Made by a program: the position numbers and the translations under genes
Shown: positions 1,558 to 41,296 of the stretch, one piece after another
Layout of the letters: each line of letters starts with the position of its first letter
Position numbering within the stretch: the stretch's first letter is position 1
Notes under the pieces: generated by a model
Told to the model about the DNA's origin: nothing
The model's database searches: none
The model's input: the letters and a program-made list of their open reading frames with translations, nothing else
Virus record (IMG/VR): IMGVR_UViG_3300036851_000459
Coordinates: 1 to 45,105 of that record
Source: a virus
Length of the DNA: 45,105 nt
Strand: one strand, 5' to 3'

Positions 1558-2180
1558 TGCCCAAGGGACGGACGCATCACCGCGGGGAGAAGGCCTACGC
1601 TGCAAGGCTCTACGGCCAAGGCGTGTCCCTCGGGGACATCTGCAAGGAGTTCGAGATCCAGCCCCAGACACTTTGGACCTGGCGCCGCGATCCGGAGTTT
1701 CAGCGCATCGCCAACGAGACGATCGAGCAGGCCGTGGCCCAGGCCGCGCAGGGTCTGCGACGGCTTGCTCCCCAGGTGATCGACGCCTTCGAGCGCGGCC
1801 TCGCGAGCCGCACCAAGGCCGTGAAGGGCTCCGAGGACCAGGTCGTCGAGCTCCCGGACCTCAGCCTGATGCTGCTGACCGCGGACAAGGTCAGCCAGCG
1901 GATCCCCGAGCTCGTCCCACACAAGGGCGTCGACGTCGACGTGGACCCGTCCAACCGGCTCGTCGAGCTGCTCCACCGCCTCGATGAACGGGACGGAGCT
2001 GCGGGCGGCGATGACGGAGGGCGACCTCTCCCGCCTCCGCCTGGACCTGAAGCTCTACTCGGCGACGAACCTGTGGATCATCACGAAGCCGGGGCCGAAC
2101 CAGCCGGCGGAGCTGTCGGTCCTTCGCCCGAACCTGGCCCAGACGATCTGCGACGCGAAGGCGGACCGCCAGAGGGCTGA
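1557..2180 (+). CDS. terS: Terminase small subunit (HTH protein)
   Basis: The N-terminus carries a helix-turn-helix of the terminase small-subunit/transposase-like type (residues ~22-44, SLGDICKEFEIQPQTLWTW), followed by a long helix (QAVAQAAQGLRRLAPQVIDAF) suited to oligomerisation. It would recognise packaging-site DNA and pass it to TerL. The frame stays open for ~65 codons into the large-subunit gene. That tail (Pro, Gly, Glu and Asp rich) looks like a shadow of terL, so a natural end near 1980 may have been lost. Its position directly before TerL supports the call. Confidence 0.75.
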   Translation: MPKGRTHHRGEKAYAARLYGQGVSLGDICKEFEIQPQTLWTWRRDPEFQRIANETIEQAVAQAAQGLRRLAPQVIDAFERGLASRTKAVKGSEDQVVELPDLSLMLLTADKVSQRIPELVPHKGVDVDVDPSNRLVELLHRLDERDGAAGGDDGGRPLPPPPGPEALLGDEPVDHHEAGAEPAGGAVGPSPEPGPDDLRREGGPPEG

Positions 2181-3936
2181 GACCGGCCGCATCCGCGCGA
2201 TCGTCCTGAAGGCGCGGCAGGAGGGCATCTCCACCTGGGTCGCGGCCCGCATCTACCACGGCTGCACGCTCTGGCTCCGCCGGCGCGGGATCGTGCTCGC
2301 GGACGTGTTCAAGCGAGCCGGGGACATCTTCGAGATCTACGAGCGGTTCGACGAGCACAACGCGATCCGACCGCCGAAGAAGACCAGCCGCAAGGCGCGC
2401 GAGCTCTCGTGGATCACGGACTCCAAGCTCGAGGTCGACACCGCCCAGGACCCCGACTCCGGTCGTGGTGGGACGCGCGACTTCGTCCATGCCTCCGAGT
2501 TCGCGGCCTGGCCGTACCCCGCTCAGACGCTCGGCGGGCTGCTCGAGTCCGTGCCGGCAGACGCGGGCGAGGTCTGGATCGAGTCGACCGCGAAGGGGGT
2601 CGGCAACGAGTTCCACGCGATGTGGGAGGCCGCGGTCCAGGGTGAGAGCGAGTTCATGCCGATCTTCCTCCCCTGGTGGATCGACGCCGGCTACCGGCTC
2701 GCGCTGACCGACGAGCAGCGCCGCGAGCTCCTGGTGGACCTGGACCCGTGGGAGCGCCAGGCCGTCGAGCCCGGCATCCCGTGGGAAGAGACGCCTGATG
2801 AGATCATCCCCGAGACGCTGCCCTCGGGCGCCTCGTACAACGCTGCGCCTTCCCGGTGGCGGCTGACGCTCGAACAGCTCGCCTGGCGTCGCAGGAAGAT
2901 CCGAGAGGGCGGACTCCTGAAGTTCCAGCAGGAGAACCCGTCAACCTCGGATGAGGCGTTCCTCGTCTCGGGGAGCCCGTACTTCGACCAGGAGCGGCTC
3001 AAGCAGATGCTGCTTCTCTGTCGGCCCCCGATCCGTCGCGGCAACTTCGTGAACGCTGGCGGCGGAATCGCCTGGTCCAACGGCGATCGCGGGTTCGTTC
3101 GGGTCTGGGAGGACCCCGACCCCGATGGTCACTACGTCCTGGGCGGCGACACGGCCGAAGGTCGAATGTCGGCAACGGCGAGCACGTTCTCCGAGATCGA
3201 CGCCGAGCGCGGGGGGCGCGACTTCTCCTCCGCGGACGTGTTCAAGGTCTCCGAGCTCGTGGATGGGCCGACACCGGGCCGGAAGATCCGGGTCCCGTGC
3301 CTTCGGCAGGTGGCTCAGATCCACGGGCGCGAAGGCCTTCCGCCTGACGTGTTCGCGTTCCAGGTCTGGGCCGCGGCTTGCTGGTGGAGCTGCCCAGGTC
3401 GAGCTGACCAGCCGAAGGTCCGGAGCCCGCACCTGACCGGGATCGAACGCAACCACTCGAGCGGGCAGACGACGATTGCCCAACTCCTTGACCGCTGGCA
3501 TCACGCCAACATGTTCATCCATCACCGGCCCAACCGCCGAGACGACGTCGTCGCGCTCGAGTATGGGTTCATCACGGACGGCAACACGCGACCCCTGATC
3601 CTCGACGAGCTCGAGCAGCTCGTTCGGACCGGCGGCATCCAGATCAACTCGGCAGACACGATCCGCGAGATGCGGACCTTCGTCCGCGGTGGGGGCAAGG
3701 CCGAGGAGGGAAAGACCGACGATGGCCGGCCCGAGGCCCAGAAGGGCTGTCACGACGATCGGGTGATGTCGGCCGCGATCGGGGTTCACATGCGCGCCTA
3801 CCACTCGGACGGGCCCCTATCGGCAGGGTCGCTCCCGCCGGCGCCGGACCTGCCCGAGAGCCTGATCGAGTACCCGACCGACCAGCCGCCTCCGCGGGTC
3901 GCGGTGGCCCAGCCCCAGAGCCTCATCGAGGCGTGA
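1984..3936 (+). CDS. terL: Terminase large subunit (ATPase-nuclease)
   Basis: 650 residues. The packaging motor has an N-terminal ATPase with a terminase-style P-loop KARQEGIST (residues 76-84) and a Walker B/coupling region RDFVHASEFAAW (165-176). The C-terminal RNase H-like nuclease has a first acidic motif GGDTAEG near residue 390 and a CHDDRVMSA motif near 590. It converts ATP hydrolysis into DNA translocation into the prohead and cuts the concatemer. The N-terminal match (DLKLYSATNLWIITKPG) starts near residue 21, so an ATG at 2011 is also possible. The overlap with terS is ~197 bases, unusually long. Confidence 0.93.
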   Translation: MNGTELRAAMTEGDLSRLRLDLKLYSATNLWIITKPGPNQPAELSVLRPNLAQTICDAKADRQRAETGRIRAIVLKARQEGISTWVAARIYHGCTLWLRRRGIVLADVFKRAGDIFEIYERFDEHNAIRPPKKTSRKARELSWITDSKLEVDTAQDPDSGRGGTRDFVHASEFAAWPYPAQTLGGLLESVPADAGEVWIESTAKGVGNEFHAMWEAAVQGESEFMPIFLPWWIDAGYRLALTDEQRRELLVDLDPWERQAVEPGIPWEETPDEIIPETLPSGASYNAAPSRWRLTLEQLAWRRRKIREGGLLKFQQENPSTSDEAFLVSGSPYFDQERLKQMLLLCRPPIRRGNFVNAGGGIAWSNGDRGFVRVWEDPDPDGHYVLGGDTAEGRMSATASTFSEIDAERGGRDFSSADVFKVSELVDGPTPGRKIRVPCLRQVAQIHGREGLPPDVFAFQVWAAACWWSCPGRADQPKVRSPHLTGIERNHSSGQTTIAQLLDRWHHANMFIHHRPNRRDDVVALEYGFITDGNTRPLILDELEQLVRTGGIQINSADTIREMRTFVRGGGKAEEGKTDDGRPEAQKGCHDDRVMSAAIGVHMRAYHSDGPLSAGSLPPAPDLPESLIEYPTDQPPPRVAVAQPQSLIEA

Positions 3937-4192: not shown

Positions 4193-4332
4193 TGCCGTTC
4201 CGGTCCGACAAGCAGAGGCGGTTCATGTACGCCAGGCACCCGGAGATCGCGAAGCGGTGGACTGCGCGCTACGGCGCCAAGCCGCGGCCCCTGCAGAGCG
4301 GGCGCAAGGGCAGGAGGCGCCGCCGTGGCTGA
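4192..4332 (+). CDS. Small basic phage protein of the FRSxxQRRFMYA type, 46 aa
   Basis: A 46-residue protein with the pattern PFRSDKQRRFMYARHPEIA. I recognise this as a small widespread phage ORF that commonly sits beside portal or terminase genes; its function is not known. The tail is strongly basic (GRKGRRRRRG), so it may bind nucleic acid. It overlaps the previous stop by one base and the portal GTG start by eight bases. Confidence 0.75.
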   Translation: MPFRSDKQRRFMYARHPEIAKRWTARYGAKPRPLQSGRKGRRRRRG

Positions 4333-6358
4333 CGCTGCATCCGAAGCCGCGCTCGTCCCCCTGTACGAGGAGGGCGATCAGGAGCCGCTGGACCAGGCCG
4401 AGCACGCCATGCTCCTGAACCGCATCTTGGAGTGGCAGATCGCGGCCGACGGGTTCCGGGAGCCGAAGAAGCGCGACTGGCGCCGCGAGTACCTGATGTA
4501 CCGGAGCTTCGTCGCTCCGCGCCGCGTCGGCGAGTGGCGCTCGCGCATGTTCATCCCGATCAGCTTCTGGGTCATCGAGACCCAGATGCCCAAGCTCATC
4601 GCGCAGCTGCCTCAGCCGATCGTGCTGCCTGTCGGACCCGAGGACGAGGAGCCGGCGCGGGTGATGGAGGAGCGCCTGAAGTGGGCGTTCGACCAGTCCC
4701 AGCTCCATCTCGAACTCGTTGCGGCGTACCGCTCCGCGCTGAAGTATGGGACCGGGATCCTGAAGGTCTACCCGGCCAAGCTGCAGGACTGGGTGATCCT
4801 CACGCAGCCCGTCGTTAGGCGCGAGGAGGTCGAGCTCCCGGAAGACCCGGAGATCGATCCCACCACCGGCCAACCGATGCTCGACATGGACGGCAACCCG
4901 CTGATGACCGGGGGCGGGACGCAGGAGATGGAGGTCCCCGTCCTCGACGCCACGGGCTCACCGAAGACGCGCGACGTCCGGCAGCCCTTCACGTACTACC
5001 AGGGCCCAGTGGCCGAAGCCCTCGACATCGAGGATGTCTGGGTGAGCCCCGAGGCCTCAAGCTTCGATGACACGCGCTACGTGATCCACCAGGTCTACCG
5101 CGAGCTCGAGGAGATCGAGCAGCTCGTCAAGGATGGGACCTACAAGCTCCCGGAGGGCCGTTCGATCCGCGACCTGTGGGAGTGGGAGGACAACCCCGCC
5201 CTTCAGCGCCAGGGCGAGCTCGGGGAGTCCGGCCAGCCCGACATGACGCGCGAGCCGGTCAGGGTCTGGGAGTGCTGGACGAAGACCGGCATGGTCTACA
5301 CGGTGCTGAATGAGCGCCTGATCGTCCGCAAGGCCCGCAACCCGTTCGCCCACGGCAAGGTGCCCTTCGTCCGGATCCTGGATTACTTCCAGGAGCACGA
5401 GTTCTACGGGACCGGCGAGCTCGGGCCGATCCTCGGCATCCAGGACGCGATCAACTCGCTCTGGAACAGCCGCATCGACAACGTCCGCCTGGTGCTGCAG
5501 CGCGTGTTCGCGGTCAACACGGACAACCTCTGGGACCTGCGCGACCTCCGCCTGCAGCCGGGCGGCGTCATCCGGATGCGGTCGACCCAGGGGATCAACC
5601 CGCAGGACCTGCTCTACCCGATCGACTTCCCCGACATCACGGGCTCGGCCTACGAAGAGGTCAACGAGCTGATCGGGCTGGTCGAGCGGGTGCTCTCGAA
5701 CTCGGGCTACCAGTCCGGCGTGGACTCCGCGACCATGAACGACACGGCCACCGGGGTCGCGCTCATCACCGAGCAGGGGAACACGCGCCACGCGACGAAG
5801 GTCCGGATGGCCGAGCTGACCGGCCTGGTCCCGCTGACCCGGATGTTCGGATCGCTGCTGCAGCAGTACGCGCCCGAGAGCCTCCTGGTCCGCCGGGAGG
5901 GCGGATCCCAGACCGCCGGCGCCGAAGAGCAGGGTGAGATGGGCGAAGGTGGCCCGGACATCGAGGGGCAACAGAGCGAGTTCGGTTGGGACGAGCTCAC
6001 CGCGGCCGAACTCCAAGGGAATCTGGACTACGACCTCGAGGCCGGTGCCCAGGCCCAGACGGATTCGGTCCGCAAGGAGCTCGACATGACCTTGTGGAAC
6101 CTGCTCCACGGGGCAACGGACGCGGCCGGGGTCCCGCTGGTGGACGAGCGCGAGCTCCTACGCGACTTCCTCCGGTCCTGGGGGAAGAAGGACACGAGCC
6201 GCCTCATCGTCGACCCGCAGGTCTGGCTCCAGGAGCAGATGGCCCAGCAGGCCGCGCTCGCCCCGCCGGGGATGGGCATGGAGCCCGGTCTGGCTGGCGG
6301 CATGGGCGAGCCGCTGCCACCTGAAGCCGAGATGGCTGGCGCGCCGATGGGCTTCTGA
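4325..6358 (+). CDS. Portal protein
   Basis: 677 residues, starting at GTG 4325. It reads as a large portal protein (P22/podovirus size class). The N-terminus has the WRREYLMYRSFVAPRRVGEW region, then WVIETQMPKLIAQLPQPIV and a helical stretch AYRSALKYGTGILKVYP, typical of portal wing and stem folds. The middle has HGKVPFVRILDYFQEHEFYG and GELGPILGIQDAINSLWNS, the usual portal helix. The C-terminus is Met/Pro/Gly/Glu-rich and probably disordered. A 12-mer at the capsid vertex would be its working form. Position after TerL and before the scaffold supports the call. Confidence 0.88.
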   Translation: MADAASEAALVPLYEEGDQEPLDQAEHAMLLNRILEWQIAADGFREPKKRDWRREYLMYRSFVAPRRVGEWRSRMFIPISFWVIETQMPKLIAQLPQPIVLPVGPEDEEPARVMEERLKWAFDQSQLHLELVAAYRSALKYGTGILKVYPAKLQDWVILTQPVVRREEVELPEDPEIDPTTGQPMLDMDGNPLMTGGGTQEMEVPVLDATGSPKTRDVRQPFTYYQGPVAEALDIEDVWVSPEASSFDDTRYVIHQVYRELEEIEQLVKDGTYKLPEGRSIRDLWEWEDNPALQRQGELGESGQPDMTREPVRVWECWTKTGMVYTVLNERLIVRKARNPFAHGKVPFVRILDYFQEHEFYGTGELGPILGIQDAINSLWNSRIDNVRLVLQRVFAVNTDNLWDLRDLRLQPGGVIRMRSTQGINPQDLLYPIDFPDITGSAYEEVNELIGLVERVLSNSGYQSGVDSATMNDTATGVALITEQGNTRHATKVRMAELTGLVPLTRMFGSLLQQYAPESLLVRREGGSQTAGAEEQGEMGEGGPDIEGQQSEFGWDELTAAELQGNLDYDLEAGAQAQTDSVRKELDMTLWNLLHGATDAAGVPLVDERELLRDFLRSWGKKDTSRLIVDPQVWLQEQMAQQAALAPPGMGMEPGLAGGMGEPLPPEAEMAGAPMGF

Positions 6359-8140: not shown

Positions 8141-9313
8141 ATGCCCACGAACATCCGCGTCGCAGAGTCGACCGGCAACGTGCCCGCATCGCGGGCCGTC
8201 CGTGACGTCTCCCGCGACATCCACTACCTCGACGCCGACGCGGCGCCCTATGTCCTGATGTCCAAAAGGGCAGGCCGGCGCCCAGTCTCGGCGAAAGAGT
8301 TCGAGTGGATCGAGAAGCAGCGGCCGACTGAGGTGGACAACGTCATCGGGGCGCAGACGAACGTCGACACGGCGATCGAGGTCGACACCCCGAATGCGTA
8401 CTTCGTCGACGACCTCGTGATGAACATGAGGACGCGGGAGATCTTCCGCGTGACCGTCGGCGGCACCTCACCGATCACCGTGGTCCGTGGAGTCGGGTCC
8501 GTCGCCGGTACGGCGATGAACGACAACGACCCGCTCATCATCATCGGGCCGTCCGTCCAGGAGGGGAACACGGCCGGGATCGAGCGCTCGGTCCAGGAGG
8601 CGTTCCTCACGAACTACACCCAGATCTTCGAGCACCCCTTCGGCACGACGGGGACCGAGGCTGCGGTGGACAACTACACCGGCAAGGATCGCCCGCGCCT
8701 GCAGCGTGAGTTCGCGACCTACCACATGCAGGCGATCGAGAAGGCGTTCCTGCTCGGCCAGAAGAACCAGGACGTGTCCGCCCCAAACAACCCCCGCCGC
8801 TACACCGGGGGCTTCGACTACTTCATCCAGCTCAACGGGCTGAACGTGGTCGACGCGGGTGGGGCGCTCTCGGATCCCACGGTCGAGGACTTCGCTCGAC
8901 GGCTGTTCGAGAACACGGGCGGCGGACCCACCAGGGTCTTCTTCACCGCCAGCAAGGTCGTCGCGATCCTGAACCAGCTCGCCGCCGGGCGTCTGCAGAC
9001 CGTCCCGCGCGACGAGGTCTACGGGATCTCGATCAAGCAGTGGGACTCGTTCTTCGGGTCCCTGTTCGTCGTCCAGCACCGGCTCCTGAAGTCGGCGCCG
9101 GATGTATCCGCGTTCGCCGGCTTCGGCGAGCGGCTGTTCGGGGTGGACCCGAAGAAGCTTCGGTATGCCGCGTTGCGAACGCGCGACACGAAGCTCGAGG
9201 AGAACGTCCACAACCCCGGCTACGACGGTTGGAAGGATCTGTACCGCACCGAGGCTGGCTTCGAGATCGCCAACCCCGAGTGCCACGGGATCCTGAAGAC
9301 GATCACGTCGTAG
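8141..9313 (+). CDS. Major capsid protein (SU10-type HK97 fold)
   Basis: 390 residues with features of the SU10-like major capsid family: an N-terminal arm (RDVSRDIHYLDADAAPYVLM), FEWIEKQRPTEVD, then the EAFLTNYTQIFEHPFGTTGT and FATYHMQAIEKAFLLGQKN segments. These match the E-loop, spine-helix and P-domain order of that family as I know it. It would form the icosahedral shell. A strong ribosome site (GAGGAGGACC) fits high expression. Its place after the scaffold supports the call. Confidence 0.85.
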   Translation: MPTNIRVAESTGNVPASRAVRDVSRDIHYLDADAAPYVLMSKRAGRRPVSAKEFEWIEKQRPTEVDNVIGAQTNVDTAIEVDTPNAYFVDDLVMNMRTREIFRVTVGGTSPITVVRGVGSVAGTAMNDNDPLIIIGPSVQEGNTAGIERSVQEAFLTNYTQIFEHPFGTTGTEAAVDNYTGKDRPRLQREFATYHMQAIEKAFLLGQKNQDVSAPNNPRRYTGGFDYFIQLNGLNVVDAGGALSDPTVEDFARRLFENTGGGPTRVFFTASKVVAILNQLAAGRLQTVPRDEVYGISIKQWDSFFGSLFVVQHRLLKSAPDVSAFAGFGERLFGVDPKKLRYAALRTRDTKLEENVHNPGYDGWKDLYRTEAGFEIANPECHGILKTITS

Positions 9314-11081: not shown

Positions 11082-11082
11082 G

Positions 11083-14407: not shown

Positions 14408-15642
14408 GCATCTACCTCGACACCGGCGACACGCTCTCGGGCGAGGCGGGCGGCGCCGGCATCATCACGGCGACCTTCTATGGCCGCCGGCAGAGCCACC
14501 CGGACCACTCGAAGATCGACCAGCGCCAGGTCCCCGCCGCGCCGACCACGCTCTACACGTCGACGGGTGAGGAAACGGTCATCGACACGATCGTCCTCGC
14601 GAATCCCACCGCGAGCGCTTCGACGATCAAGCTCTGGCAGGACGGGAGCACGGACCCGTTCATCATCCTGCCGGCGGTGAACCTGCTGGCCGGCGAGTTC
14701 GCCGTCTTCGCCGAGGACGGCTGGAAGTTCTACAACGCGGACGGGAGCCTCAAGGGATCGGGCGCCGCGGGTGCTCCCGGAGCCCCCGGAGCCACGGGCG
14801 CCCCTGGACCTCAAGGGCCCGCAGGCGAAACCGGCGACGAGGGTCCCCAGGGGCCTCCCGGATCCGCGGGCTCGCCCGGCCCCTCGGGTGGCGTAGGACC
14901 GGCGGGACCGCAGGCTTTCGCGTTCATCGAGGGAGCCGAGGGCGAGGTCGGTCCGATCGGGCCTCCTGGTCCTCCCGGAGCGGCGGGAGCGGCCGGCGAG
15001 CAAGGTCCGGCGGGGGTGCAGGGCTTCGCGTTCATCGAAGGCACCGAGGGCGAGAATGGTCCACCCGGCCCACCTGGGCCACCCGGAGCGGCTGGTGCCG
15101 CGGGATCGCAGGGGCCAGCCGGGCCTCAGGCCTTCGCCTTCATCGAGGGCACCGAGGGCGAGATCGGGCCCCCAGGACCGCCAGGAGTCCGCGGCATCGA
15201 CGGTGCTGCAGGGCCTCAGGGCCCCGCCGGTCCGCAAGCGTTCGCCTTCATCGAGGGAACCGAAGGATCCGAGGGCCCACCGGGGCCGCCTGGGCCGGCG
15301 GGAACCGTCCCGCTCGTCACGTTCTCGGTCGGAGCCCTCCTCGAGGGTGCGCCGCCCTCCAATGGATTCCGGATGGTCTGGCGAGCTCCGTTCGCCTGCA
15401 CCGTCACGCACGTCCGCGGCCACATCGATGCTGGGACGAACGCCGTCATCAACGCTCGGAAGAACCAGGCCTCCGACTTCATGTCGGCCGATCTGACCGT
15501 GGATCCCGCCGACCAATGGGAAGAAGGCGTCGCGAACCAGAACCAGTCGATCGCCGTGGGTGACGACATTGAAGTTGAGCTCGTGTCGACGTCTGGGGCA
15601 GTCACCCAGGTCAACATCCAGGTCGACCTGACGAGGGTCTAG
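14404..15642 (+). CDS. Collagen-like tail fibre with 36-residue repeats
   Basis: 412 residues. The first ~115 are a beta-rich attachment domain. Residues ~118-301 are Gly-X-Y collagen repeats interrupted four times by the non-collagen element (A/G)FAFIEG(A/T)EG, starting at residues 171, 207, 243 and 279, exactly 36 residues (108 bases) apart. The C-terminal ~105 residues are a beta domain ([19 protein letters not shown]...), a likely receptor-binding or trimerising tip. The protein probably forms a homotrimeric fibre. The precise repeat could expand or contract by recombination. It starts in an ATGA overlap with the preceding gene. Confidence 0.88.
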
Positions 15643-17940: not shown

Positions 17941-19371
17941 ATGGCCCTGGTCCGACCCGGCGTTTCTGGCCGCAAGCGGCTCATAAAGCGCGCGAACCCT
18001 CGAGGTCAGAACAGCCAGGGTGGTCTGCCCAACCGCGGCATTCCCCGTGCTGGGGGCGGAGCGCGCGATATCGGCCAGCGCCAGGCCCAGCGTGTCAACC
18101 GCGGCTTCCAGGGCGGCGGCGCTGGTCGGGGCCGGCGTGGGATCGGAGGCGGTCGTGGCGTCCCACCTGGCATTGGCCCAGCCGCCCCGCTCATCCCCGA
18201 AGGCCTCGGTGGCGCCTACAACGCTGGCACGACGATGGAGCAGATCGCGCGCAATGAGTACCTGAACAGCCTCCCCGTGGGCGGCGTACGCGAGGCCGCG
18301 ATGAACCAGATGGGCTACTGGACTGGCGGGGTGCCGTACACGCCGGAGGTTCCGCGCGGGTACAACCAGGCGATGAGAGCGCGGGCCCAGTCCGACCAGT
18401 ACACGGCCCCTGGCATCTACCAGCACATGACTCCTGGCGGCGGGTACACCGGGTTCACGGAAGTGACGGGTGAGCCAGGCAACCTCACGGGCCAGTACAC
18501 GCCGTTCGACAGGAATGCACGTGGCGGCCCCCAAGGCGGCCAGCGACCCAACCCACGCCCCAACAACGGCCCCGGCGGGATGCCGAACCGCGGTGTTCCG
18601 GGAGCCGGAGGCAGGTTCGGGCGAGGAGCTGGCGGCGCGAATCGAGGCGATCGCGGACGCCCAGGTGGGGCAGGAGCCCAGGGAGGTCAAGGGCGCGGAC
18701 GCATCCCTCCCCGATTCGGGGGTGGTCCGGGAGTGGGAGGGGTTCCAGCGCCCGGAGTGGCGGCCCCTGCACCAGCAGCACCGGCAGGGGGTCTTCCACT
18801 CACCGGCGCTGGCGAACAGGGCCAGCGGCTCGCCGAGGACCAGCTCGCCGCGCAGCTCTCCCAGCTCGGCGTCGCGCGCGACCAGATCGAGCCGTTCCTC
18901 GAGCTGTTCCGCCAGAGGATCGGGACGCAACAGGGCCTCGACAAGGCGGCGCTGGACGAATCGCTCGTGGGCCGCGGGATCTACAACAGCTCGATCCGAA
19001 GCGAGGATCAATTCAACCTCGACACGCTCTACGACCGCCAGCGTCAGGACGCCGCGATCGAGGCTGCCGGCCAGTACGCCGACATCGATCAACAGGCGGC
19101 CGACGCCTATGGGGAGTACGCGCGCCAGCTTCAGGAGCTCTGGCTGAACATCTCCCAGGGCCAAGCCGAGAACCCGAGTCCGGTGCTCGGTGCCGGTGGG
19201 CTCGGCAGAGGCGGAGGGCGAGGCGGAGGCGGAGGGCGAGGCGGAGGCGGAGCCGGAGGCGGAGGCGGAGGCGGAGGCCGGAACCAGAGCGGCCGGCGGG
19301 GTGGCGGCAATCGCAACGCGCCCCCGCGTGGCGGCCGGCCGGCTCGCAACCGCGCGAGGGGACGGCGCTGA
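17941..19371 (+). CDS. Gly/Arg-rich internal virion protein, 476 aa
   Basis: A ribosome site GAAGGAG precedes the ATG. Residues ~1-80 and ~170-270 are rich in Gly, Arg and Gln. The motif PNR-G-(I/V)-P-x-AGG occurs twice (PNRGIPRAGG near residue 30, PNRGVPGAGG near 215). Residues ~290-400 are a helical Gln/Asp/Leu region (DQLAAQLSQLGVARDQIEPF). The C-terminus is nearly pure Gly and Arg (~419-476). Such basic, disordered ends suggest DNA contact within the capsid or ejection. There is no tape-measure pattern. Confidence 0.65.
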   Translation: MALVRPGVSGRKRLIKRANPRGQNSQGGLPNRGIPRAGGGARDIGQRQAQRVNRGFQGGGAGRGRRGIGGGRGVPPGIGPAAPLIPEGLGGAYNAGTTMEQIARNEYLNSLPVGGVREAAMNQMGYWTGGVPYTPEVPRGYNQAMRARAQSDQYTAPGIYQHMTPGGGYTGFTEVTGEPGNLTGQYTPFDRNARGGPQGGQRPNPRPNNGPGGMPNRGVPGAGGRFGRGAGGANRGDRGRPGGAGAQGGQGRGRIPPRFGGGPGVGGVPAPGVAAPAPAAPAGGLPLTGAGEQGQRLAEDQLAAQLSQLGVARDQIEPFLELFRQRIGTQQGLDKAALDESLVGRGIYNSSIRSEDQFNLDTLYDRQRQDAAIEAAGQYADIDQQAADAYGEYARQLQELWLNISQGQAENPSPVLGAGGLGRGGGRGGGGGRGGGGAGGGGGGGGRNQSGRRGGGNRNAPPRGGRPARNRARGRR

Positions 19372-20153
19372 TGGCAAAGAACGACTCAGGACGCAGGGGC
19401 GGCGGCACCCGCCGAGACGGGAACCGGGGTGGAGGGGCAGGCAACCGCGCCTCGCGCCGGCTCACGCGCCGAGCTCGTCGCGATGTCCGCGCGTCGTTCA
19501 AGCCCCAATTCAACCTGCTCGAACGCGAGCAGACGAGGGCCGAGCAGGATGCCTCGCAGTACCAGGGCCAGATGGAGAACCTGTACGGGGGTCTGCAGAA
19601 CCAGCTCGCCGAGATCGGGCCCCAGTACCAGGGCCAGGTCGCGGACATCCAGGGGAACCTCACGGGATCGCTCGGCACCCTGACCGGGATGCTGGGTGGG
19701 ACGCCCGCCGGCGAGCAGGCCGCAGCCGCGGGTGCCTTCGGAGCCGTGGGTGAGGGAGGTCTGGCCGGGCTCGCATCCCAGGCAGCGCGCGGCGCCGGCT
19801 ACAACGCCTCCGCGATGCGCCAGGGCGCGATCGATCAGGTCAACTACTCGGCGGCGATCCTCGAGGAGTTGAAGCAATTCAAGCAGGCGCTCTCCGAGCA
19901 GCGTCAGGACCTGACCGGCGAGATGGCGCCGCTGATCCTGTCCCGGATCGACGAGCTCAAGGAGCGGGCGCGGCAGATGGCCCTCGCGAACAAGGAGTTC
20001 CAGCTCCGCAAGCAGGCGACGACCCAGGGCCTCGGACTCGAGAAGGCCCGCTTCGGTCTCGAGCGGCGTGAGCGCTCCGCCCTCGCCGGCTTGACCCAGG
20101 CCCAGATCCAGGCCTTGCTCGACAAGATCAACCGGCAGAGGGGAGGACGCTGA
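19371..20153 (+). CDS. Basic coiled internal virion/ejection protein, 260 aa
   Basis: Overlaps the previous stop by one base. The first ~45 residues are Arg/Gly-rich, then a Gln/Leu helix with repeats YQGQ (SQYQGQMENLYGG and PQYQGQVADIQG). A Gly/Ala-rich middle and a long Gln/Leu/Arg helix (ELKQFKQALSEQRQDLTGEM... ARFGLERRERSALAGL) follow. Basic head plus long helices in a run of similar genes is typical of podovirus ejection proteins; no specific family recognised. Confidence 0.62.
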   Translation: MAKNDSGRRGGGTRRDGNRGGGAGNRASRRLTRRARRDVRASFKPQFNLLEREQTRAEQDASQYQGQMENLYGGLQNQLAEIGPQYQGQVADIQGNLTGSLGTLTGMLGGTPAGEQAAAAGAFGAVGEGGLAGLASQAARGAGYNASAMRQGAIDQVNYSAAILEELKQFKQALSEQRQDLTGEMAPLILSRIDELKERARQMALANKEFQLRKQATTQGLGLEKARFGLERRERSALAGLTQAQIQALLDKINRQRGGR

Positions 20154-21073
20154 TGGCGAGCCTGGATCAGCTGCTCGCCACTGCCGCGCGGGAGGGTCCC
20201 GCTGGTCTTCCTGCCGCAGTCAGCGGTCCACCGCCACGTCGGCCTGGCGGAGGAGGGGTCCAGTACCGCCCCCTCGAGCGGCGAACGCTCGAGAATCTCC
20301 TCGTTGCCCTGCAGGCTGGCCTGCAACCGGAGATCGGCCTCGGGATGTACCAGGACGTTCAGCAGAGCGCGCTCGATCGCCTACTGCTGCAGCGACAGAA
20401 GGCTGCGGCGGCCCGAGAGGCCCGCCAGACGGTCCTACCGGAGGCGATCGACACGGCCGCGAGCTACGCCGCCGCAGGTCTTCCATCCGGGCTGGCCGAG
20501 GCGGCGTACTCCGGCTACGGCCCAGGGATCCAGAACCAGCTCGGCGGGGCGATCGAGGAGCTGTACCCCGACGGGGTCGCGATGAGCCCGTACGGTGCCG
20601 AAGGGGCTGCTGCAGGTGCCCTGGACGCCGAGAGCCTGGCGAACATCGACGCCGACCTGCAGGCCGCGATCGGTCAGGGGCGCGACCTGCACACGACGCG
20701 CATGGCGATCATGACCAGACTCCGGATGCTCGAGGTCCCCGAGCCGACCCTGCAGCAGGTCTACGACTACATCGGCCAGCAGTGGACGACGCTTGGTGGG
20801 GTCGGGCCCGAGGGCGCCGAGGAAGCCGACGTCGCGGCATCGAACGCCGGTGCTGGCGTGGGCGCGGGCATCGGTGGCGCGATCGGGGGGGTGGCCGGGA
20901 CCTTCGTCGGTCATCCGGTCCTGGGGGCTCTCGCTGGCTCGGCGCTCGGAGGCTACGTCGGAGGCCAGCCAAGGATCGGGGCCACGCTCGGAGAGAAGGC
21001 GCTTGCGACGCCCGAGTTCCGCAACCGCCTAGAGGAAATGCTCCGGCGGGGAGGCCTTGGCGGACAGGGCTAG
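20153..21073 (+). CDS. Glycine-zipper virion protein, possible ejection pore, 306 aa
   Basis: The N-terminal 70 residues are Arg/Pro-rich, the middle is helical (LYQDVQQSALDRLLLQRQKA-like), and residues ~230-270 form a Gly-zipper membrane region (GVGAGIGGAIGGVAGTFVG, LGALAGSALGGYVGG). Glycine zippers pack helices in membranes, so the protein may insert in the host envelope during DNA entry. It overlaps the previous gene by one base, which suggests a shared function with its neighbours. The C-terminus is a short charged helix. Confidence 0.62.
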   Translation: MASLDQLLATAAREGPAGLPAAVSGPPPRRPGGGGVQYRPLERRTLENLLVALQAGLQPEIGLGMYQDVQQSALDRLLLQRQKAAAAREARQTVLPEAIDTAASYAAAGLPSGLAEAAYSGYGPGIQNQLGGAIEELYPDGVAMSPYGAEGAAAGALDAESLANIDADLQAAIGQGRDLHTTRMAIMTRLRMLEVPEPTLQQVYDYIGQQWTTLGGVGPEGAEEADVAASNAGAGVGAGIGGAIGGVAGTFVGHPVLGALAGSALGGYVGGQPRIGATLGEKALATPEFRNRLEEMLRRGGLGGQG

Positions 21074-21302: not shown

Positions 21303-24300
21303 TTGCCGCAAGTGGCCCTTTACGAATCGATGTTCGCTCCCAAGCGCCAGAGCGCGGTCTACACCCCGATGTTCGCGACCCCCGCGGCCCTTCCGGGCGC
21401 ACCGTCTGAAGACGGCGGCGGGGGTCCGTTCGGCTTCCTCGGGAACATCGCCGGCGAGGCGAAGGACATCGTCACCGGGCTCGGCACGCTGGTCGGTACG
21501 GGGATCCATGACGTAGGCCGCGGACTCGGCCAGGTGCTCCCAGGTCGGCAGGACTGGGGGATCATCTCGGACAACCCGGCCGACGAGTACCGGCTCGATC
21601 AGGTCGCGGCCGAGTTCCTGCCGGCGGTCATCGAAGACCTCGGCGCGCGGTACGGCCCTCTGGCTCGCGGTGACATCGGGGGCTTCGCCGAGCAGGTCTA
21701 CGAGCGCCCGCTCTCGTTCGGTCTCGATGTCCTGGCGGTGGGACAGGGCCTGTCCAAGGGCGCTCAGTACGCTCGGCGTGCCGGCGTGACTTCGAGTGCG
21801 CTCGATCGATTCCTCCCCCAAGAGACCGCACGGCTGGTCGGGACCGAGGTCCAACGCGGTCTGCGGACCGGGAACCCCGTGCGGGCGGCCCTGTTCGAGC
21901 GGCCCTTCGAGCGCTTCGGCACGCGCCCAATCTCCGAGCTCGAGGCTGACGTCGGAGCTCTGCAGGCCCTCGAGGAGGCAGGCCTCAACCTCCCGGCCCA
22001 GAGCGCCGAGCTCGCCCGTCTGTCCGACCAGCTCCGTGTCGCGACGGAGGCGGGCGTGGAGCGGATCTACAAGCCGGCGCTCGAGAACCGGCTCCTGCGG
22101 AAGATGACCGACCGCCTGATCGGTGCCCACTTCCAGGCCGGCCTGAAGGCGCGCGACGAAGACCTGCTCGCGGTCCAAGAGACGCTCGAGCCGCTCGCAG
22201 CCGAGGGGATCACCGACGACGTCGCAGAGGCCGCTTTCCAGCGTCTATCGATCGAGCCGGGTCTTCGGGCAATCCCTGAGGGCGAACCCGGTCGAGTCTC
22301 GACGATCGAAGCGCTGACGCCAGAGCCAGGACCGCTACCAGCGGCAAGAGTGCTTGATCCCGCGGATGAACTTGACCTGCGCGAGTCGGAGGCCTTCTAC
22401 GCTCAGAAACTCGACGAGCTCGAGACAACGCGCGCTGAGCACTTCGATGCGAGCGCGGCCGCCTATGGGGAGCGCGGGAGCTGGCCGTCGAGCTCAGAGA
22501 TGCGGATTCGTGCTGACGAGCAGGCAGTCGAGGCGATGGAGGCGCGCCTGGCAGATGTTCGAGGTCAGCTTGCGGAAGCCGCGCCGGGGAACATCACATC
22601 GACGTCGGCCGGCGAGATCGGGACCGCATCGAGGCTGTCGAGCGAAGCCGCGAACAGAGGGCTCGCGTCCAGCCAGCCCCTGTCGGGCCTCCAAACCTCG
22701 AGCGCGCCCAGCGGCGCATCGTCGAGCGTGCGGAGCAGGTCGCCCTTGGCGTTCCAGTACCTCGGTCCTGAGGCCACCATCTCTCGAACTCACGCTCCTT
22801 TCCACGGATACTCTAACACGCAAGCCCTCCTTGACGCAGCCCCAGGGGCCGAGACCGAGCTCCGTCAGGTTCTGGATCAGGTCTACGGCCCCGAGGCGCT
22901 CGGGCCGAGCCGCGTGAAGTCGGCGGACTCCCTGCAGCGCAAGCTCGAGCACAAGGCTCTGCTCGCCAGGATCGCCGATGGCGTGGACGTGCCACCGGAG
23001 TCCTTCCTGCCCTCGGTCACGGATGGGGTCGGCGCGCGGGTGGAGATCGGCTCGTGGTCCGAGGTCGCGAGCAAGCTCGACCAGCTCCGCCAGAACGGCG
23101 TGGAGATCCTCGAGGTCGACGACTTCGTCGCCTCGCCGCAGCGCTCGGGCTACCGCGGGGTCCACGCGACCGTTCGCCTGCCATCCGGCTTCGTCGGCGA
23201 GGTCCAATTCCACACGCCGCTGTCGGCTCGGATGGCCCACGCCGGCCACCCCTCCTACGAGGTTCTGCGGGACCTCGAGAAGCAAGTCCTCGAGCTCCGG
23301 TCGGCCGGCGAGGACATCCCGCTGGACCTGCAGCGGCAATTCGATCTGACCGAGACCTACGTCCGCCGGTTCCAGGAGCCCGTCCTCCGGGAGATGGAGG
23401 AGCAGCTCCGGCGCCGGCCCATGTCCACGCTCGATCGGACGATGGAAGACATGCGCCTGATCGTCCAGGAGCGCCTGACCAACCCGATGATCGAGCGCGG
23501 CCTGCTGACGCCGGCTGAGGCGATGGAGCGCGCCTATTTGCCGCTGCGTGTGGCGGATGGGGCGAGTTACGACTACAAGGCCGGTGGCTTCGTCGGCGGT
23601 CGCGACGTCCTCGAGCTCGACCAGCTACTCGACGCGCAGGGCATCTCGGCGCCGATCTACTTCCCCCACGTCGACGTCCGCAAGGTGAACTTCTCCGACT
23701 TCATCTCGCTCTCGAAGCAGCGGATCGGGGCTCGGCGCATGACCCGACTGCAGTACGCCGAGCGGAACACCGGCTACCTGCTCGAGAAGGGCCTCTACAA
23801 CAAGAGCCCACTCGAGGCCTACAGCCGGCGCGCGGCCCAGGCGGTCCGGTTCGAGGAGACCTACCGCTTCGTCAACGACATCGCCGGGCGCTTCGGGCGC
23901 CGGATCTCGAGCGTCGACGACATCAATCCGGCGACCGAGATGGTCTTCGCTCCGGATGGTCTCCTGCGGTTCTTCCGCCAGCAGATGCACGTCCGGGACG
24001 CGGCCGCCGATGTGATCGCGGCAGCGCGTTCGGAGGACGAGCACCTGGCCGCCGCGCTCCGCTCGGTCCTCGAGCCGGTCCAGGACGAGATCGGCGACGT
24101 GGTCACCCGCCAGGGCGTAGGAGTCACCAAGCGCGGGATCGAGCTCTACGCGATCCCCAAGGCGGTCGCCGAGCGCCTCGAGGCCCACGTCCGCCCGCTC
24201 CTCGGGCCGACGATCGAACGCAACCTCCGGCTGTTCTGGGACACGCCCACGAACGCCTGGCGGGGTTTCGTGCTCGCGGGCTCACCGCGCTGGCTGGTGA

Positions 24301-25535
24301 ACAACACGCTCGGCAACGTCGTCTTCGCCAAGATGCAGGGCGCTCGCCTTCGAGACGTGATCGCCCAGCTCGACAAGCGCTACCTCGCGAAGATGCGGGA
24401 GATCCCTGGGATCACCGGCGTCGAGGGCGGCATGTTCGGCCAGAGCTCGATGTACCTCGCCAAGCGCGGCTCGGCGAACCTGACGAAGACCGGCCAGCTC
24501 CTCGAGGCTGGCGCGGAGCTCGGCGCCGTTCGCAAGGTCAAGGCCGTTGGCGAACGCGTCCGCCAGATCAACGGCGTGATCGAGGACGCCTTCCGCCGGG
24601 CGTCGTACCTGCGGGGCGTCGAGCGCGCGCAGCTCCGGAGCTCACTGCGCTCGGCGGGCGGGCACTTCGAGAGCGGCATGAAGCGGCTCGAGACGATCGC
24701 CAAGCGCGGCTTCGACGACAACACTGCCCGCCAGGGGCTCGACGAGGTCAACTACTTCTTCAACGACTACTCCGCGGCGACGCCGTTCGGCCGCCAGATC
24801 ATCCGGCGCTTCGTGGCCCCGTTCTGGTCGTTCTACCGGCACGTGGCCAAGCTGGCCGTCACCTGGCCGGTGGACTATCCGTTGAGGGCTGAAGTCCTGA
24901 AGGGCCTGACGCTGGTCACGAACGACATGGTCGAGGAGTACGGGCCGCTGCCTCCGTGGCTCGAGGGAGCCCTGCCGCTCGGACCGGGGATGGATGGCGC
25001 GGTGCAATTCCTGTCGACGCGCGGAGCGAACCCGTTCAACACGCTCTTCCAGGCGCCGCTCTCGCTGCTTCACCCGCTCTGGAAGATGACCTACGAGCAA
25101 TCGACCGGGCGCTCGAGCTTCACCGGCCGTCCCTTCACGTCGCCGGACGTCATCACGCCGTTCGGCTCGGATCAGCAATTCCAGATCATCCGCGACGACC
25201 TCGGCCGGCCGATCGATGCGGTCCCGATCGAACGGGTGACGCCGTCGCTCGCCGAGCAGCTCCTGCAGAACTTCCCGCAGTACGAGCTCGCGAAGGACAT
25301 CGCGGCCGGTGGCGCGGCGTACAGCACCGCGGACCTGCTCGACATCCTGGCCGGCGAGGGCGTGATCCGGGACGAGTTCGGCAATCCGCTGTTCCCGACG
25401 AGCGCCGCCCAGAAGGCCGCGGCCTTCGCGGGAGCCCCCGTCTTCGAGACGGATCTGGCCGAGTACCAGGCACAGCTTGAGGAGGAGCGCCAGCAGGCGA
25501 TCGCGACCGCGCTGTCCCGGATGGGGGCGAGCTGA
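21303..25535 (+). CDS. Giant virion/ejected protein with RelA/SpoT-type synthetase domain
   Basis: 1410 residues, starting at TTG 21303 with GAAGGAG upstream. Residues ~537-660 carry a (p)ppGpp-synthetase-type signature: R537-x-K539 with S543 and K547, D574 in TDGVGARV, GYRGVH at 616-621 and E633 in EVQFHT. The D-Y and Y-E spacings (43 and 16) are close to those I recall for Rel enzymes (44 and 15). All the residues I would need for catalysis are present. The flanks are helical. The C-terminal part has an LFWDTPTNAWRGFVLAGSPR and WLVNNTLGN region and an FVAPFWSFYRHVAKLAV segment like large phage polyvalent proteins. It lies after the ejection-type genes, so it may enter the cell with the DNA. 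The role of the domain (alarmone synthesis, tRNA or protein modification) is unknown. Confidence 0.8.
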   Translation: MPQVALYESMFAPKRQSAVYTPMFATPAALPGAPSEDGGGGPFGFLGNIAGEAKDIVTGLGTLVGTGIHDVGRGLGQVLPGRQDWGIISDNPADEYRLDQVAAEFLPAVIEDLGARYGPLARGDIGGFAEQVYERPLSFGLDVLAVGQGLSKGAQYARRAGVTSSALDRFLPQETARLVGTEVQRGLRTGNPVRAALFERPFERFGTRPISELEADVGALQALEEAGLNLPAQSAELARLSDQLRVATEAGVERIYKPALENRLLRKMTDRLIGAHFQAGLKARDEDLLAVQETLEPLAAEGITDDVAEAAFQRLSIEPGLRAIPEGEPGRVSTIEALTPEPGPLPAARVLDPADELDLRESEAFYAQKLDELETTRAEHFDASAAAYGERGSWPSSSEMRIRADEQAVEAMEARLADVRGQLAEAAPGNITSTSAGEIGTASRLSSEAANRGLASSQPLSGLQTSSAPSGASSSVRSRSPLAFQYLGPEATISRTHAPFHGYSNTQALLDAAPGAETELRQVLDQVYGPEALGPSRVKSADSLQRKLEHKALLARIADGVDVPPESFLPSVTDGVGARVEIGSWSEVASKLDQLRQNGVEILEVDDFVASPQRSGYRGVHATVRLPSGFVGEVQFHTPLSARMAHAGHPSYEVLRDLEKQVLELRSAGEDIPLDLQRQFDLTETYVRRFQEPVLREMEEQLRRRPMSTLDRTMEDMRLIVQERLTNPMIERGLLTPAEAMERAYLPLRVADGASYDYKAGGFVGGRDVLELDQLLDAQGISAPIYFPHVDVRKVNFSDFISLSKQRIGARRMTRLQYAERNTGYLLEKGLYNKSPLEAYSRRAAQAVRFEETYRFVNDIAGRFGRRISSVDDINPATEMVFAPDGLLRFFRQQMHVRDAAADVIAAARSEDEHLAAALRSVLEPVQDEIGDVVTRQGVGVTKRGIELYAIPKAVAERLEAHVRPLLGPTIERNLRLFWDTPTNAWRGFVLAGSPRWLVNNTLGNVVFAKMQGARLRDVIAQLDKRYLAKMREIPGITGVEGGMFGQSSMYLAKRGSANLTKTGQLLEAGAELGAVRKVKAVGERVRQINGVIEDAFRRASYLRGVERAQLRSSLRSAGGHFESGMKRLETIAKRGFDDNTARQGLDEVNYFFNDYSAATPFGRQIIRRFVAPFWSFYRHVAKLAVTWPVDYPLRAEVLKGLTLVTNDMVEEYGPLPPWLEGALPLGPGMDGAVQFLSTRGANPFNTLFQAPLSLLHPLWKMTYEQSTGRSSFTGRPFTSPDVITPFGSDQQFQIIRDDLGRPIDAVPIERVTPSLAEQLLQNFPQYELAKDIAAGGAAYSTADLLDILAGEGVIRDEFGNPLFPTSAAQKAAAFAGAPVFETDLAEYQAQLEEERQQAIATALSRMGAS

Positions 25536-25537: not shown

Positions 25538-26407
25538 TTGGCGTCCCTGGCTGACCTCCTGGCGGCGGCGCAGGGCTCTCTGGCGCTTCCGGGCACCGGA
25601 GCGCTCCCCGAGCTTCCTGATGGCGTACGGCAGCCCCAGAGCCCCCTGCAGAATCTCTTGGCAACAGGGATGTCGGGTCAGCCGGTCTCCTTCGGCGACC
25701 TGACCGGGATCGGCGGAGGCCTGGGCCGGCTCCTGCAGGCACCTGGGGGCGAGCTCGCGACCGGACCGACCGGCACCTTCGGAGGTTTCGACTTCCCGAC
25801 CGGACCGACCAGCCCCAGCGGCCCAACGCCCTACAGCGGCCCCTCGTCGTTCCAGCCGGTGCGGACTGGCCGTGTCCCGATCGAGGACCCCCATCCCGAG
25901 CGGATCCCATCGCCGTCTCTGGTCGCCCCAGAGATCCAGCGCGTCTACTACGAGCTCTGGTCGCGGTGGCCGGACACGTCGCACATGGGGACATACAACG
26001 TCCGGAACATCGCCGGGACGGACACGCTCTCGGAACACTCATTCGGGGACGCCATCGACATCGGGGGCCCCCCAGAGCAGCTCGCTGAGCAGGCATCCTG
26101 GGTCGCTAATCACGCGCGACCGCTCGGCGTCACCCAGGTCATCTACAAGGATCGGATCTGGACCGACACCGAGGGCTGGCACCCGTACACGGCTGGCGGC
26201 CATGACACCCACGTCCACATCACGGGCCCGCAGACCTACTCCGACACGAGCCCAAGCTTCCCGACGATCCGCTGGAACCGTCCCGGCCCGCGTGGCCTGG
26301 ATGCTCTCGGCGCGCAGCATGAGGCCAGTCGGCCGACGCCGACGAGTTCGGGGCGCCAGGGCCGCCAGGTCCGACGCCGGCCGACGGCCTACCGCAGCCG
26401 CATCTGA
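25538..26407 (+). CDS. Cell-wall hydrolase, VldE/M15-like zinc peptidase domain
   Basis: 289 residues from TTG 25538, two bases after the giant gene. The first ~115 residues are Gly/Pro/Thr-rich linker. Residues ~130-230 hold the catalytic-type pattern: LSEHSFGDAIDIGG (H167, D174) and GGHDTHVHITG (H222, H225, H227), plus VIYKDRIWTDTEGWHPY between them. S-x-H-x6-D ... H-x-H is the zinc site of M15/VanY-like and ARB_07466-type peptidases, which cut peptidoglycan stem peptides. There is no signal peptide. It may be a virion-bound lysin or the endolysin; a holin-like gene lies ~0.7 kb downstream. Confidence 0.78.
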   Translation: MASLADLLAAAQGSLALPGTGALPELPDGVRQPQSPLQNLLATGMSGQPVSFGDLTGIGGGLGRLLQAPGGELATGPTGTFGGFDFPTGPTSPSGPTPYSGPSSFQPVRTGRVPIEDPHPERIPSPSLVAPEIQRVYYELWSRWPDTSHMGTYNVRNIAGTDTLSEHSFGDAIDIGGPPEQLAEQASWVANHARPLGVTQVIYKDRIWTDTEGWHPYTAGGHDTHVHITGPQTYSDTSPSFPTIRWNRPGPRGLDALGAQHEASRPTPTSSGRQGRQVRRRPTAYRSRI

Positions 26408-27273: not shown

Positions 27274-27531
27274 GTGGACCCACATCTCCAACGCTTACGC
27301 ACCTGGATCCTCGTGCTGCTGATCGTCGCGGTCTCGGCGTCGATCCTGGCACCGACCGCCGTCATCGTGTTCGAGCAACGCTCAAGCAGCCGCAGCCAGC
27401 TCGTCGTGACGTGCGAAGTCATCAGGACCGGCCGGAGCATCGTGCACGCCCTCATCGGGATCCGCAACGACCTTGGCCTACCCAACGTCATCCAGATCCC
27501 GGAGGTCCCAGACGAATGCACCGAAGCCTGA
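27274..27531 (+). CDS. Single-pass membrane protein, 85 aa
   Basis: GTG 27274 is preferred over an in-frame TTG at 27268 because GGGGGAG is spaced six bases before it. One hydrophobic segment (residues ~10-31, WILVLLIVAVSASILAPTAV) follows a short charged head; the rest (RSSSRSQLVVTCEVIRTG...) is probably outside the membrane. It overlaps the next gene by 16 bases. It belongs to the lysis block, but no family is recognised. Confidence 0.62.
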   Translation: MDPHLQRLRTWILVLLIVAVSASILAPTAVIVFEQRSSSRSQLVVTCEVIRTGRSIVHALIGIRNDLGLPNVIQIPEVPDECTEA

Positions 27532-28103
27532 TCCCGCTCGTCCTCCTCACGGCCAGCTTCATCGCCCTCGTCGCCGTCACCGGGGAATCAGCCCCTCGAA
27601 GTCCCAGACGTTGCAGCTGGGTCGGGACCGCGGACCGTGACGTGAAGACCGGCACGAAAGGCAGGAACATCCTCTGCGCCAAGCCGGGGAACGACTTCAT
27701 CCACGGGGCCGGAGGCAACGACGAGCTCATCGCCGGCAAGGGCCGGGACACCGTAGTCGGCGGAGGCGGCCGGGACATCCTGAAGGGTGGCAGAGGCGCC
27801 GATCGCCTGTTCGCCGTCGATGATCGCGGTGGCGAGACCGTCATCGGCGGACCCGGTAGGGACCAATGCTTCGCCGATCCAGCGGACCACGTCTCCGGAT
27901 GTGAGCAGACCTTTCGATCCCAGGAGCCAGAGCTCGCTGGCGCTCTCGCGTCCTCACTCCTGACCGTCATGGAGATCGCCGAGGAGACTGCACCGAGCTC
28001 AACGACCCCGCCTCCGGTCGAGACGATCACCGAGGTCATCACCGTCACGGAACCGTTCCCGGCGTGTACGCCCCCGCCGGCGAACCCGCCTCAACCCTGC
28101 TAG
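27516..28103 (+). CDS. Secreted RTX (Gly-Asp nonapeptide) calcium-binding protein
   Basis: 195 residues from ATG 27516. The N-terminus (MHRSLIPLVLLTASFIALVA) is a Sec signal peptide. Residues ~56-118 are RTX-type repeats with the GGxGxDxx pattern (GNDFIHGAGGNDELIAGKGR in one stretch, then GGGGRDILKGGRGADRLF, GGPGRDQCF), which bind calcium in a parallel beta-roll. Cys at ~33, 54, 118 and 129 may form disulfides. The C-terminus is a Thr/Pro stalk. Calcium folding outside the cell is the known property of the repeat. Why a lysis block would carry it is not known. Confidence 0.78.
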   Translation: MHRSLIPLVLLTASFIALVAVTGESAPRSPRRCSWVGTADRDVKTGTKGRNILCAKPGNDFIHGAGGNDELIAGKGRDTVVGGGGRDILKGGRGADRLFAVDDRGGETVIGGPGRDQCFADPADHVSGCEQTFRSQEPELAGALASSLLTVMEIAEETAPSSTTPPPVETITEVITVTEPFPACTPPPANPPQPC

Positions 28104-40342: not shown

Positions 40343-41296
40343 ATGACCGTTGCGCCACAAGCCTCCCCCGCAGTAGCGTCCTACGGCACGATGAGCTTCC
40401 CGCCGTCCCGGCGGAGCATCTTCGCGCTGGTGAACGAGTGGGCGGAATGGCTGGGCGCACGGGGGCTGTCCGAGCGGACGATCGACTCCTACTGGCGCTA
40501 CCTGCTCGCGGCCGGCCGCCTCGCCGGCAAGGATCCGCGCGAGTTCTCAGAGCGCGACGTGGTCGAAGTGATGAGCGCCTACCCGGCCAAGGGCGGCGGG
40601 CGCGCAATGGCGATCCGGGCGATGCGGTCGTTCTTCGCATGGGCGGTCGACGTCGAGGTCGCCGAGATGCTCCTGAACCCCGCGCGGAGAATTACGGTCC
40701 CCCGCTCGAAGCTCCCCCCGGCCCCGCGACTGTCGCGCGACGAGCTCGGGGCCGTCTGGACCGCGGCCGAACAGATCGACCCGAGGGCCCGCCCGACACT
40801 GGTCCTGCTCTACTTCACTGGCGCTAGGGTCGGCTCGATCGTCGGCGTGGAGCCCGAGCACATCCGGACCGACCGGCTGGGTGGCCTCTCGATCTACTTC
40901 GCGGTGGCCAAGGGAGACTTCCCCTACGAGCTACCGCTCGAGGCACCCGAGGCGATCGAGGCTGTCGAGGAGCTCCGCGGGCTTCTCGATTGGAAGCCGA
41001 AGATGGCGGTCGCGCGCCGGAGAACGCTCGTCGGCGTGGGCGAGGGCACCGTCTGGAAGTGGGTCTCGAAGGCGGGCGCGCTTGCCGGTGTCCGTGCCTA
41101 CCCACACCTAGTCAGGCACACGATGCTCTCGGACCTGGCGCAGGATCCGGAGGTCGACGTGCGGACGTGGGTCCAAGTCTCCAACCATCGCGACGGATCG
41201 CAGCTCCGGCGGTACGCAGCCGCGTCGGAGCCCCGGATCAGAGGGGCACTCGCCCGGCTCGGCGCGTCACACCCAGGGGATACAGTCCAGACGTGA
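40343..41296 (+). CDS. int: Tyrosine recombinase integrase
   Basis: 317 residues. The N-terminus has a SAM-like core-binding domain (NEWAEWLGARGLSERTIDSY). The catalytic residues are R162 (YFTGARVGSIVGV), K190, H255-x-x-R258 (HLVRHTMLSD), H282 (NHRDGSQLRRY) and the nucleophile Y291. All are present, so the enzyme should be active. It would insert the circular genome at an attP site. I could not identify attP; the region after the gene is coding. It lies next to the broken repressor. Confidence 0.9.
   Translation: MTVAPQASPAVASYGTMSFPPSRRSIFALVNEWAEWLGARGLSERTIDSYWRYLLAAGRLAGKDPREFSERDVVEVMSAYPAKGGGRAMAIRAMRSFFAWAVDVEVAEMLLNPARRITVPRSKLPPAPRLSRDELGAVWTAAEQIDPRARPTLVLLYFTGARVGSIVGVEPEHIRTDRLGGLSIYFAVAKGDFPYELPLEAPEAIEAVEELRGLLDWKPKMAVARRRTLVGVGEGTVWKWVSKAGALAGVRAYPHLVRHTMLSDLAQDPEVDVRTWVQVSNHRDGSQLRRYAAASEPRIRGALARLGASHPGDTVQT

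Follow-up and report, generated by a model that had tools for sequence, protein, structure and literature searches.

RelA/SpoT-family domains have been reported in phage proteins in more than one context. Iyer et al. (2017, PMC5512222) found them in MuF fusions as well as in polyvalent proteins of phages, and argued that the large proteins adjoining virion genes, in which RelA/SpoT, ART and other domains occur, are injected into the host, as is known for T4 Alt and the phage N4 RNA polymerase; RelA/SpoT was listed there as phage-only and RadC as conjugative-element-only, and ART-PolyVal is a hallmark domain of these proteins. MuF (p)ppApp synthetases have been assayed, among them the MuF-linked, prophage-encoded Apk2 (Paulet et al., PMC12226406). 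The small alarmone synthetases (SAS) of bacteria, RelQ/SAS1 and RelP/SAS2 (5ded, 6ewz, 6fgk), are free-standing tetramers, whereas the exported synthetases (SaEAS 8vx3, VpEAS and AaEAS; PMC12691689) are used outside the cell that makes them, which they leave by means of secretion signals or secretion-system domains, and some of them make (p)ppGpp only. Here we analyse positions 1 to 45,105 of the IMG/VR virus record IMGVR_UViG_3300036851_000459 (45,105 nucleotides, hereafter the window), in which a gene of 1410 codons close to the virion genes encodes a RelA/SpoT-family domain. The protein is best read as a phage polyvalent protein, with exchangeable enzyme modules in its N-terminal half on a conserved C-terminal core.

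The assignment of the domain to the RelA/SpoT synthetases is firm in both family and predicted fold. With the full protein as query, residues 536-648 match PF04607 (RelA_SpoT) with 34.4 bits and an E value of 2.9e-8, above the curated cut-off of 27 bits, and the isolated domain exceeds it further (38.4 bits, E 1.7e-9); a six-frame profile search of the whole record led to the same place, and RelA_SpoT is the sole domain that Pfam recognises in the 1410 residues. Among PDB sequences, the top phmmer match is the small alarmone synthetase YwaC of B. subtilis (E 4.4e-5), and a profile built from the window domain and its nearest relative reached E 4.8e-7. The AlphaFold2 model of the domain, made from a 30-sequence alignment, has a mean pLDDT of 83.9 and a pTM of 0.79 and shows the SAS/nucleotidyltransferase fold; about 30 top Foldseek matches in the PDB are all alarmone synthetases. 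In VIA-align the model superposes on SAS1 5ded with Z 14.7 (3.0 Å over 171 residues), followed by RelP 6ewz (14.0), SaEAS (13.2), Tas1 (11.9), CapRel (11.6), Rel (11.2) and FaRel2 (7.5). A chance match is rejected by the Pfam score, the profile E value against PDB sequences and the fold Z scores. The residues that define the superfamily, the catalytic D and E, the RxK...K motif and the Tyr of the acceptor motif, are all present, and the active site is on this basis firmly predicted to be intact. The domain had originally been proposed, from the DNA letters and their translation, as a (p)ppGpp-synthetase domain, and that identification holds, as do the places given for R537, K539, S543, K547, D574, GYRGVH (616-621) and EVQFHT from E633, with R537 starting at base 22911; the nucleotidyltransferase fold on which the proposal depended is present in the predicted structure.

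The original prediction also held such a domain in so large a protein to be rare or undescribed, which does not stand, in view of the descriptions of 2017, the assayed MuF enzymes and dozens of phage relatives, some of more than 2000 residues. In BFVD the same fold is present in several viral proteins of 980-1320 residues, including entries named RelA/SpoT, DdrB-like and ART-PolyVal-like, and the fold searches of PDB and BFVD thus indicate both that the domain is real and that public databases already contain comparable large proteins of phages. The kind is therefore already known, and what is new here is a member with a slightly unusual combination of motifs. Compared with the proteins of Iyer et al., the window protein similarly combines a RelA/SpoT-family domain with a large phage protein near virion genes, an ART domain in a sister protein and a proposed delivery linked to the DNA, but it has a different C-terminal core, a GxH plus QFH signature and no MuF, peptidase or LPD match. 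The nearest full-length NCBIfam models are very large proteins including the XopAD/skwp effector family; the scores lie far under the cut-offs and membership is not claimed.

Scans of viral contigs with the whole protein or the domain as single query found no relatives, so relatives were reached via the capsid protein, for which an alignment-based scan gave 80 loci. The closest, contig G001 (IMGVR_UViG_3300031576_000128), shares 74% identity with the window in its capsid protein and has the same order of large terminase subunit (TerL), portal, major capsid protein (MCP) and, further on, large protein, and a 1621-residue homologue of the latter. The two large proteins are most alike across residues 736-1410 (60-65% identity); identity falls to 49% within the RelA domain and to 34-43% in the N-terminal half. 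PF04607 finds nothing in G001; loss of the domain there is rejected by direct alignment, which shows R-V-K, the second K, D (in LADYVGARV), GYRGYH and EIQFHT retained, so that both acidic residues, whose loss in close homologues would have counted against the original proposal, are kept here; among the named residues only S543 differs (RVKELSAAEKK). A scan of viral contigs for the motif EVQFHTP gave 61 loci, and those that pass the profile mostly encode proteins of about 500-700 residues whose domain lies towards the C-terminus, an arrangement like that of MuF toxins; giant proteins among the loci have 1243, 1285 and 2070 residues, and a later scan adds others of 2124 and 2566. Residues K539, K547, D574, Y617, E633, Q635 and H637 are invariant in 30 phage relatives. 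The 2070-residue protein (L050:96-6305) carries an Apk-type domain at residues 968-1113, a weak DRAT-like match and C-terminal pentapeptide repeats, and loci L066, L185, L186, L187, L188, L189 and L205 are near-identical to it.

The signature by which acceptor specificity has been classified is mixed in the window domain. Paulet et al. (PMC12226406) give RYT, GxN and QFH for the adenosine type and AVR, SxH and QIR for the guanosine type, the histidine of SxH being described as recognising guanosine. Nearly all other phage sequences of our set carry RYT-like, GxN and QFH motifs; the window domain and that of G001 have D-x4-R and an SAS-like acceptor loop (DDFVASPQRSGYRGVH) with GYRGxH, yet QFH. 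Relative to the Apk type, the window thus has TDGVGARV where syn2 RYT would stand and GYRGVH where syn3 GxN would stand, and agrees only in syn4 (EVQFHT); relative to the guanosine type, the D-x4-R spacing of syn2 is found, the Ser of SxH is Gly with the His kept, and QFH replaces QIR. This combination of (p)ppGpp-type D-x4-R and GYR-x-x-H with the EVQFHT of (p)ppApp toxins appears to be unusual: at exact spacing (GYR/K, a small residue, any residue and H, then 11 residues, then E-x-QFHT), a scan of 2.9 million viral contigs, from which the window's own record may be left out, found it in two IMG/VR contigs, G001 and L194. In the latter (IMGVR_UViG_3300031952_005193, 7505-15202), a 2566-residue open reading frame (ORF) bears GYRGxH...EIQFHT like the window, with RelA_SpoT at 790-896, the central domain of the DNA polymerase III beta clamp at 1103-1219 and RadC at 1417-1525.

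A guanine nucleotide is the likeliest acceptor because of the SAS-type loop and H621, although the confidence that this assignment deserves is about even, since motif exchange failed to convert Apk2 (PMC12226406), from which it follows that motifs predict the product poorly, and since exported relatives can yield guanosine-only or mixed products (PMC12691689). The bacterial RelQ/SAS1 and RelP/SAS2 enzymes are the best match in sequence profile, fold, acceptor loop and syn2 spacing, but they carry EIQIRT and stand alone, whereas the window domain is an internal module with EVQFHT. In the tree, the window and G001 form a pair (97/92) beside SAS/RSH (93/83) and apart from a (p)ppApp-type group of 37 (95/86). 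Two points weigh against the guanine assignment, namely that the syn4 motif QFH is of (p)ppApp type and that the tree has long branches and modest support. It may be suggested, tentatively and with more doubt than confidence, that the window, G001 and the 2566-residue protein represent a separate subgroup of injected synthetases, which would combine a guanine-type acceptor site with toxin-type syn4 and, at ejection, increase the level of (p)ppGpp, or of some other 3'-pyrophosphorylated product, in the host.

It has also to be considered that the module, delivered in the same way, makes (p)ppApp like Apk2 and drains ATP/ADP. The phage set carries EVQFHTP, the syn4 signature of Apk, without exception, and most of its members have RYT and GxN like the assayed (p)ppApp synthetases; the structural match to Tas1 and SaEAS is good. 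The window lacks the two other Apk signatures, with D-x4-R against D-x2-R-Y-T and GxH against GxN, and this product is unlikely. Apk2 is likewise a phage head-region protein containing a RelA/SpoT-fold domain with EVQFHT, but it has RYT, GxN, a MuF N-terminus and the adjacent genes iapK and aph1, while the 1410-residue protein matches no MuF model at E 0.1, its gene does not adjoin that of the portal, and no hydrolase accompanies it. No HD_4 alarmone hydrolase occurs in the window, G001 or G002 (a second related contig), the large-protein gene is separated from its neighbours by no gene that might encode an IapK-like partner, and no Aph1-like partner was found, which speaks further against the Apk-type product; nor does any immunity-type gene precede the peptidase-like gene downstream. 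In Bordetella phage vB_BbrM_PHB04 (L002:7002-9267), the gene just after that of the portal encodes a RelA-domain protein, and a small HD_4 alarmone hydrolase is encoded two genes further along, an arrangement that resembles a pair of synthetase and hydrolase within the head module. PADLOC returned only a weak partial match, to candidate PDC-S33. Modification of tRNA 3' ends, which would halt host translation as in the toxSAS type of CapRel and FaRel2, is a still less probable activity; the fold is shared with both, as the Z scores given above show, but sequence and structure are nearer to the nucleotide-acting SAS.

The comparison with relatives also bears on how the domain is carried and on whether it is active. 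At residues 372-640 the G001 homologue (L170:12898-17760) contains ART-PolyVal (E 5.5e-12), where the window protein has a short linker; a whole effector module has been gained or lost between sister phages. This linker of the window protein is probably helical. In G002 the C-terminal core is accompanied, in the same region, by a half-domain (AYRSFNAWVRTKDGRIIELQFYTP) that only the 30-sequence profile detects (24.1 bits; the best of 500 shuffles scored 5.8) and that lacks the RxK...K part and, by inspection, the D at the place of D574. More distant homologues of the core (L089, L086, L084 and L176), in other SU10-like contigs, score nothing against the RelA-domain profile. Since the G002 copy is degenerate and these core homologues are without the domain, the RelA domain is an accessory module on a conserved scaffold. 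Two scans of genome contigs and a final scan with the core alignment added no relative to G001 and G002 and pointed to no bacterial host. The degenerate G002 copy, and the failure of PF04607 to find the one in G001, would fit a domain without catalytic activity that a virion protein retains for structure or binding. As all catalytic residues are kept in the window and in G001 despite 49% domain identity, such inactivity is improbable, and the module is likely to be active as a pyrophosphokinase.

As to delivery, the large protein is probably packaged in the virion and ejected with the DNA, by analogy with the proteins considered by Iyer et al. It fits the description of polyvalent proteins because of its gene position and the ART domain of its sister: in the window and in G001 the gene order places it with the late virion genes, and, although only RelA_SpoT is recognised in the window protein, the G001 protein combines ART-PolyVal with a RelA-like domain. 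The exported synthetases are alike in fold and, for SaEAS, in the EVQFHT motif, but differ in their carrier, which for the window module would be the phage core. Delivery with the DNA had been proposed originally as well; gene position and analogy support it, but the label of the upstream genes as internal or ejection-type depends on weak PHROG matches (best E 0.022). An unlikely alternative is that the protein is not ejected and acts late in the producing cell, for instance on rival phages or on lysis timing. Without a neighbouring immunity gene, late synthesis would expose the producing cell, which might be taken in its favour; against it stand the polyvalent architecture and a conserved gene order in which the gene comes at the end of the virion block. 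In the phages Kuura, Tiera and EBPR podovirus 3, the large structural protein that is encoded last occupies the same gene place, and no kinship of the N- or C-terminal parts with any of these three was detected.

Taken together, a polyvalent protein that is packaged and ejected, with a RelA/SpoT-family module acting on a host nucleotide early in infection, is the best overall explanation, to which we attach about equal belief and doubt. On this view, late synthesis and packaging of the protein would be followed by its ejection together with the DNA. Once in the new host, the module would bind ATP via R537, K539 and K547, D574 and E633 would hold Mg2+, and an acceptor placed against Y617 would receive the beta-gamma pyrophosphate of ATP on its 3'-OH. 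With a guanine acceptor the product would be (p)ppGpp, and the phage would lower GTP and bring about a stringent-like state, with less rRNA and host transcription, ahead of its own gene expression; related synthetases of the exported kind are toxic to E. coli when they produce (p)ppGpp in large amounts (PMC12691689). Two observations count against this explanation: profile and sequence searches detected no homology of the large protein to a proven ejection protein, and G002 lacks the D and the RxK...K motif, so that the activity would be dispensable in this lineage. If the module is ejected and active, the earliest phage molecules to arrive in the cell would already alter host nucleotide pools, when no phage gene has yet been read. 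The window, G001 and G002 form a small set in which one scaffold bears an intact module, an intact module plus ART and a degenerate one, and the mixed motif is a naturally occurring variant that may help to identify the residues deciding between guanine and adenine, a point on which the Apk2 motif swaps failed (PMC12226406).

Table 1. Features of the window, with positions and the basis on which each was assigned (aa, amino acids).
Feature	Position	Strand	Basis
Polyvalent-type protein, 1410 aa	21303..25535	+	TTG start; GGAG ribosome-binding-site-like upstream; same-order homologue in related phage
Variable block, residues 351-430	22353..22592	+	nearest relative has about 250 extra residues here, including ART-PolyVal
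Predicted SAS-fold domain, residues about 504-706	22812..23420	+	AlphaFold2 model, of which residues 25-227 superpose on SAS structures (highest Z 14.7)
Pfam RelA_SpoT match, residues 536-648	22908..23246	+	profile search
ATP-site motif R537-V-K539...K547	22911..22943	+	K539 and K547 invariant in 30 relatives
D574, first of the two acidic catalytic residues, within TDGVGARV, with D-x4-R spacing as in SAS	23022..23024	+	invariant in 30 relatives
GYRGVH (616-621), acceptor-base motif	23148..23165	+	Y617 invariant; H621 of (p)ppGpp-synthetase type (PMC12226406)
EVQFHT (633-638), second acidic residue and QFH signature of (p)ppApp synthetases	23199..23216	+	E633, Q635 and H637 invariant in 30 relatives
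Conserved C-terminal core, residues 836-1410	23808..25532	+	common to phages without the RelA domain
Large terminase subunit (TerL)	1984..3936	+	
SU10-type portal protein	4325..6358	+	PF23899, E 3e-32
SU10-type major capsid protein	8141..9313	+	PF17236, E 1.2e-37
Collagen-like tail fibre	14404-15642		
Three upstream ORFs (476, 260 and 306 aa), candidate internal virion proteins	17941..21073	+	weak PHROG matches
Extensin-like_C / M15-type peptidase fold candidate	25538..26407	+	E 3.7e-4, below curated cut-off
Tyrosine integrase	40343..41296	+	PF00589, E 4.8e-8

The sequence GAAGGAGACC stands 5' of the TTG start of the large-protein gene, and the structure model of the C-terminal core is of low confidence (pLDDT 34.8). 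Within the virion block the large-protein gene is the penultimate one, with the peptidase-like gene starting 2 bases past it. By its gene content the phage is SU10-like, of podovirus type and, given the tyrosine integrase, temperate; searches with MCP, portal and TerL found named phages only at a distance. Two of the three ORFs upstream of the large protein are present in the same order in G001, and the 306-residue product has a glycine-zipper-like stretch. The 476-residue product (17941-19371) is rich in glycine and arginine, and its best match, to an 'internal virion protein' PHROG, is the weak one cited above. Elsewhere in the window, residues 211-340 of ORF 11899-12927 match PHROG 16914, 'sporulation protein' (E 2.2e-11), and may represent a cell-wall hydrolase, and ORF 27411-28103 encodes RTX-type calcium-binding repeats (PF00353, E 1.9e-14), which are unusual beside phage genes.
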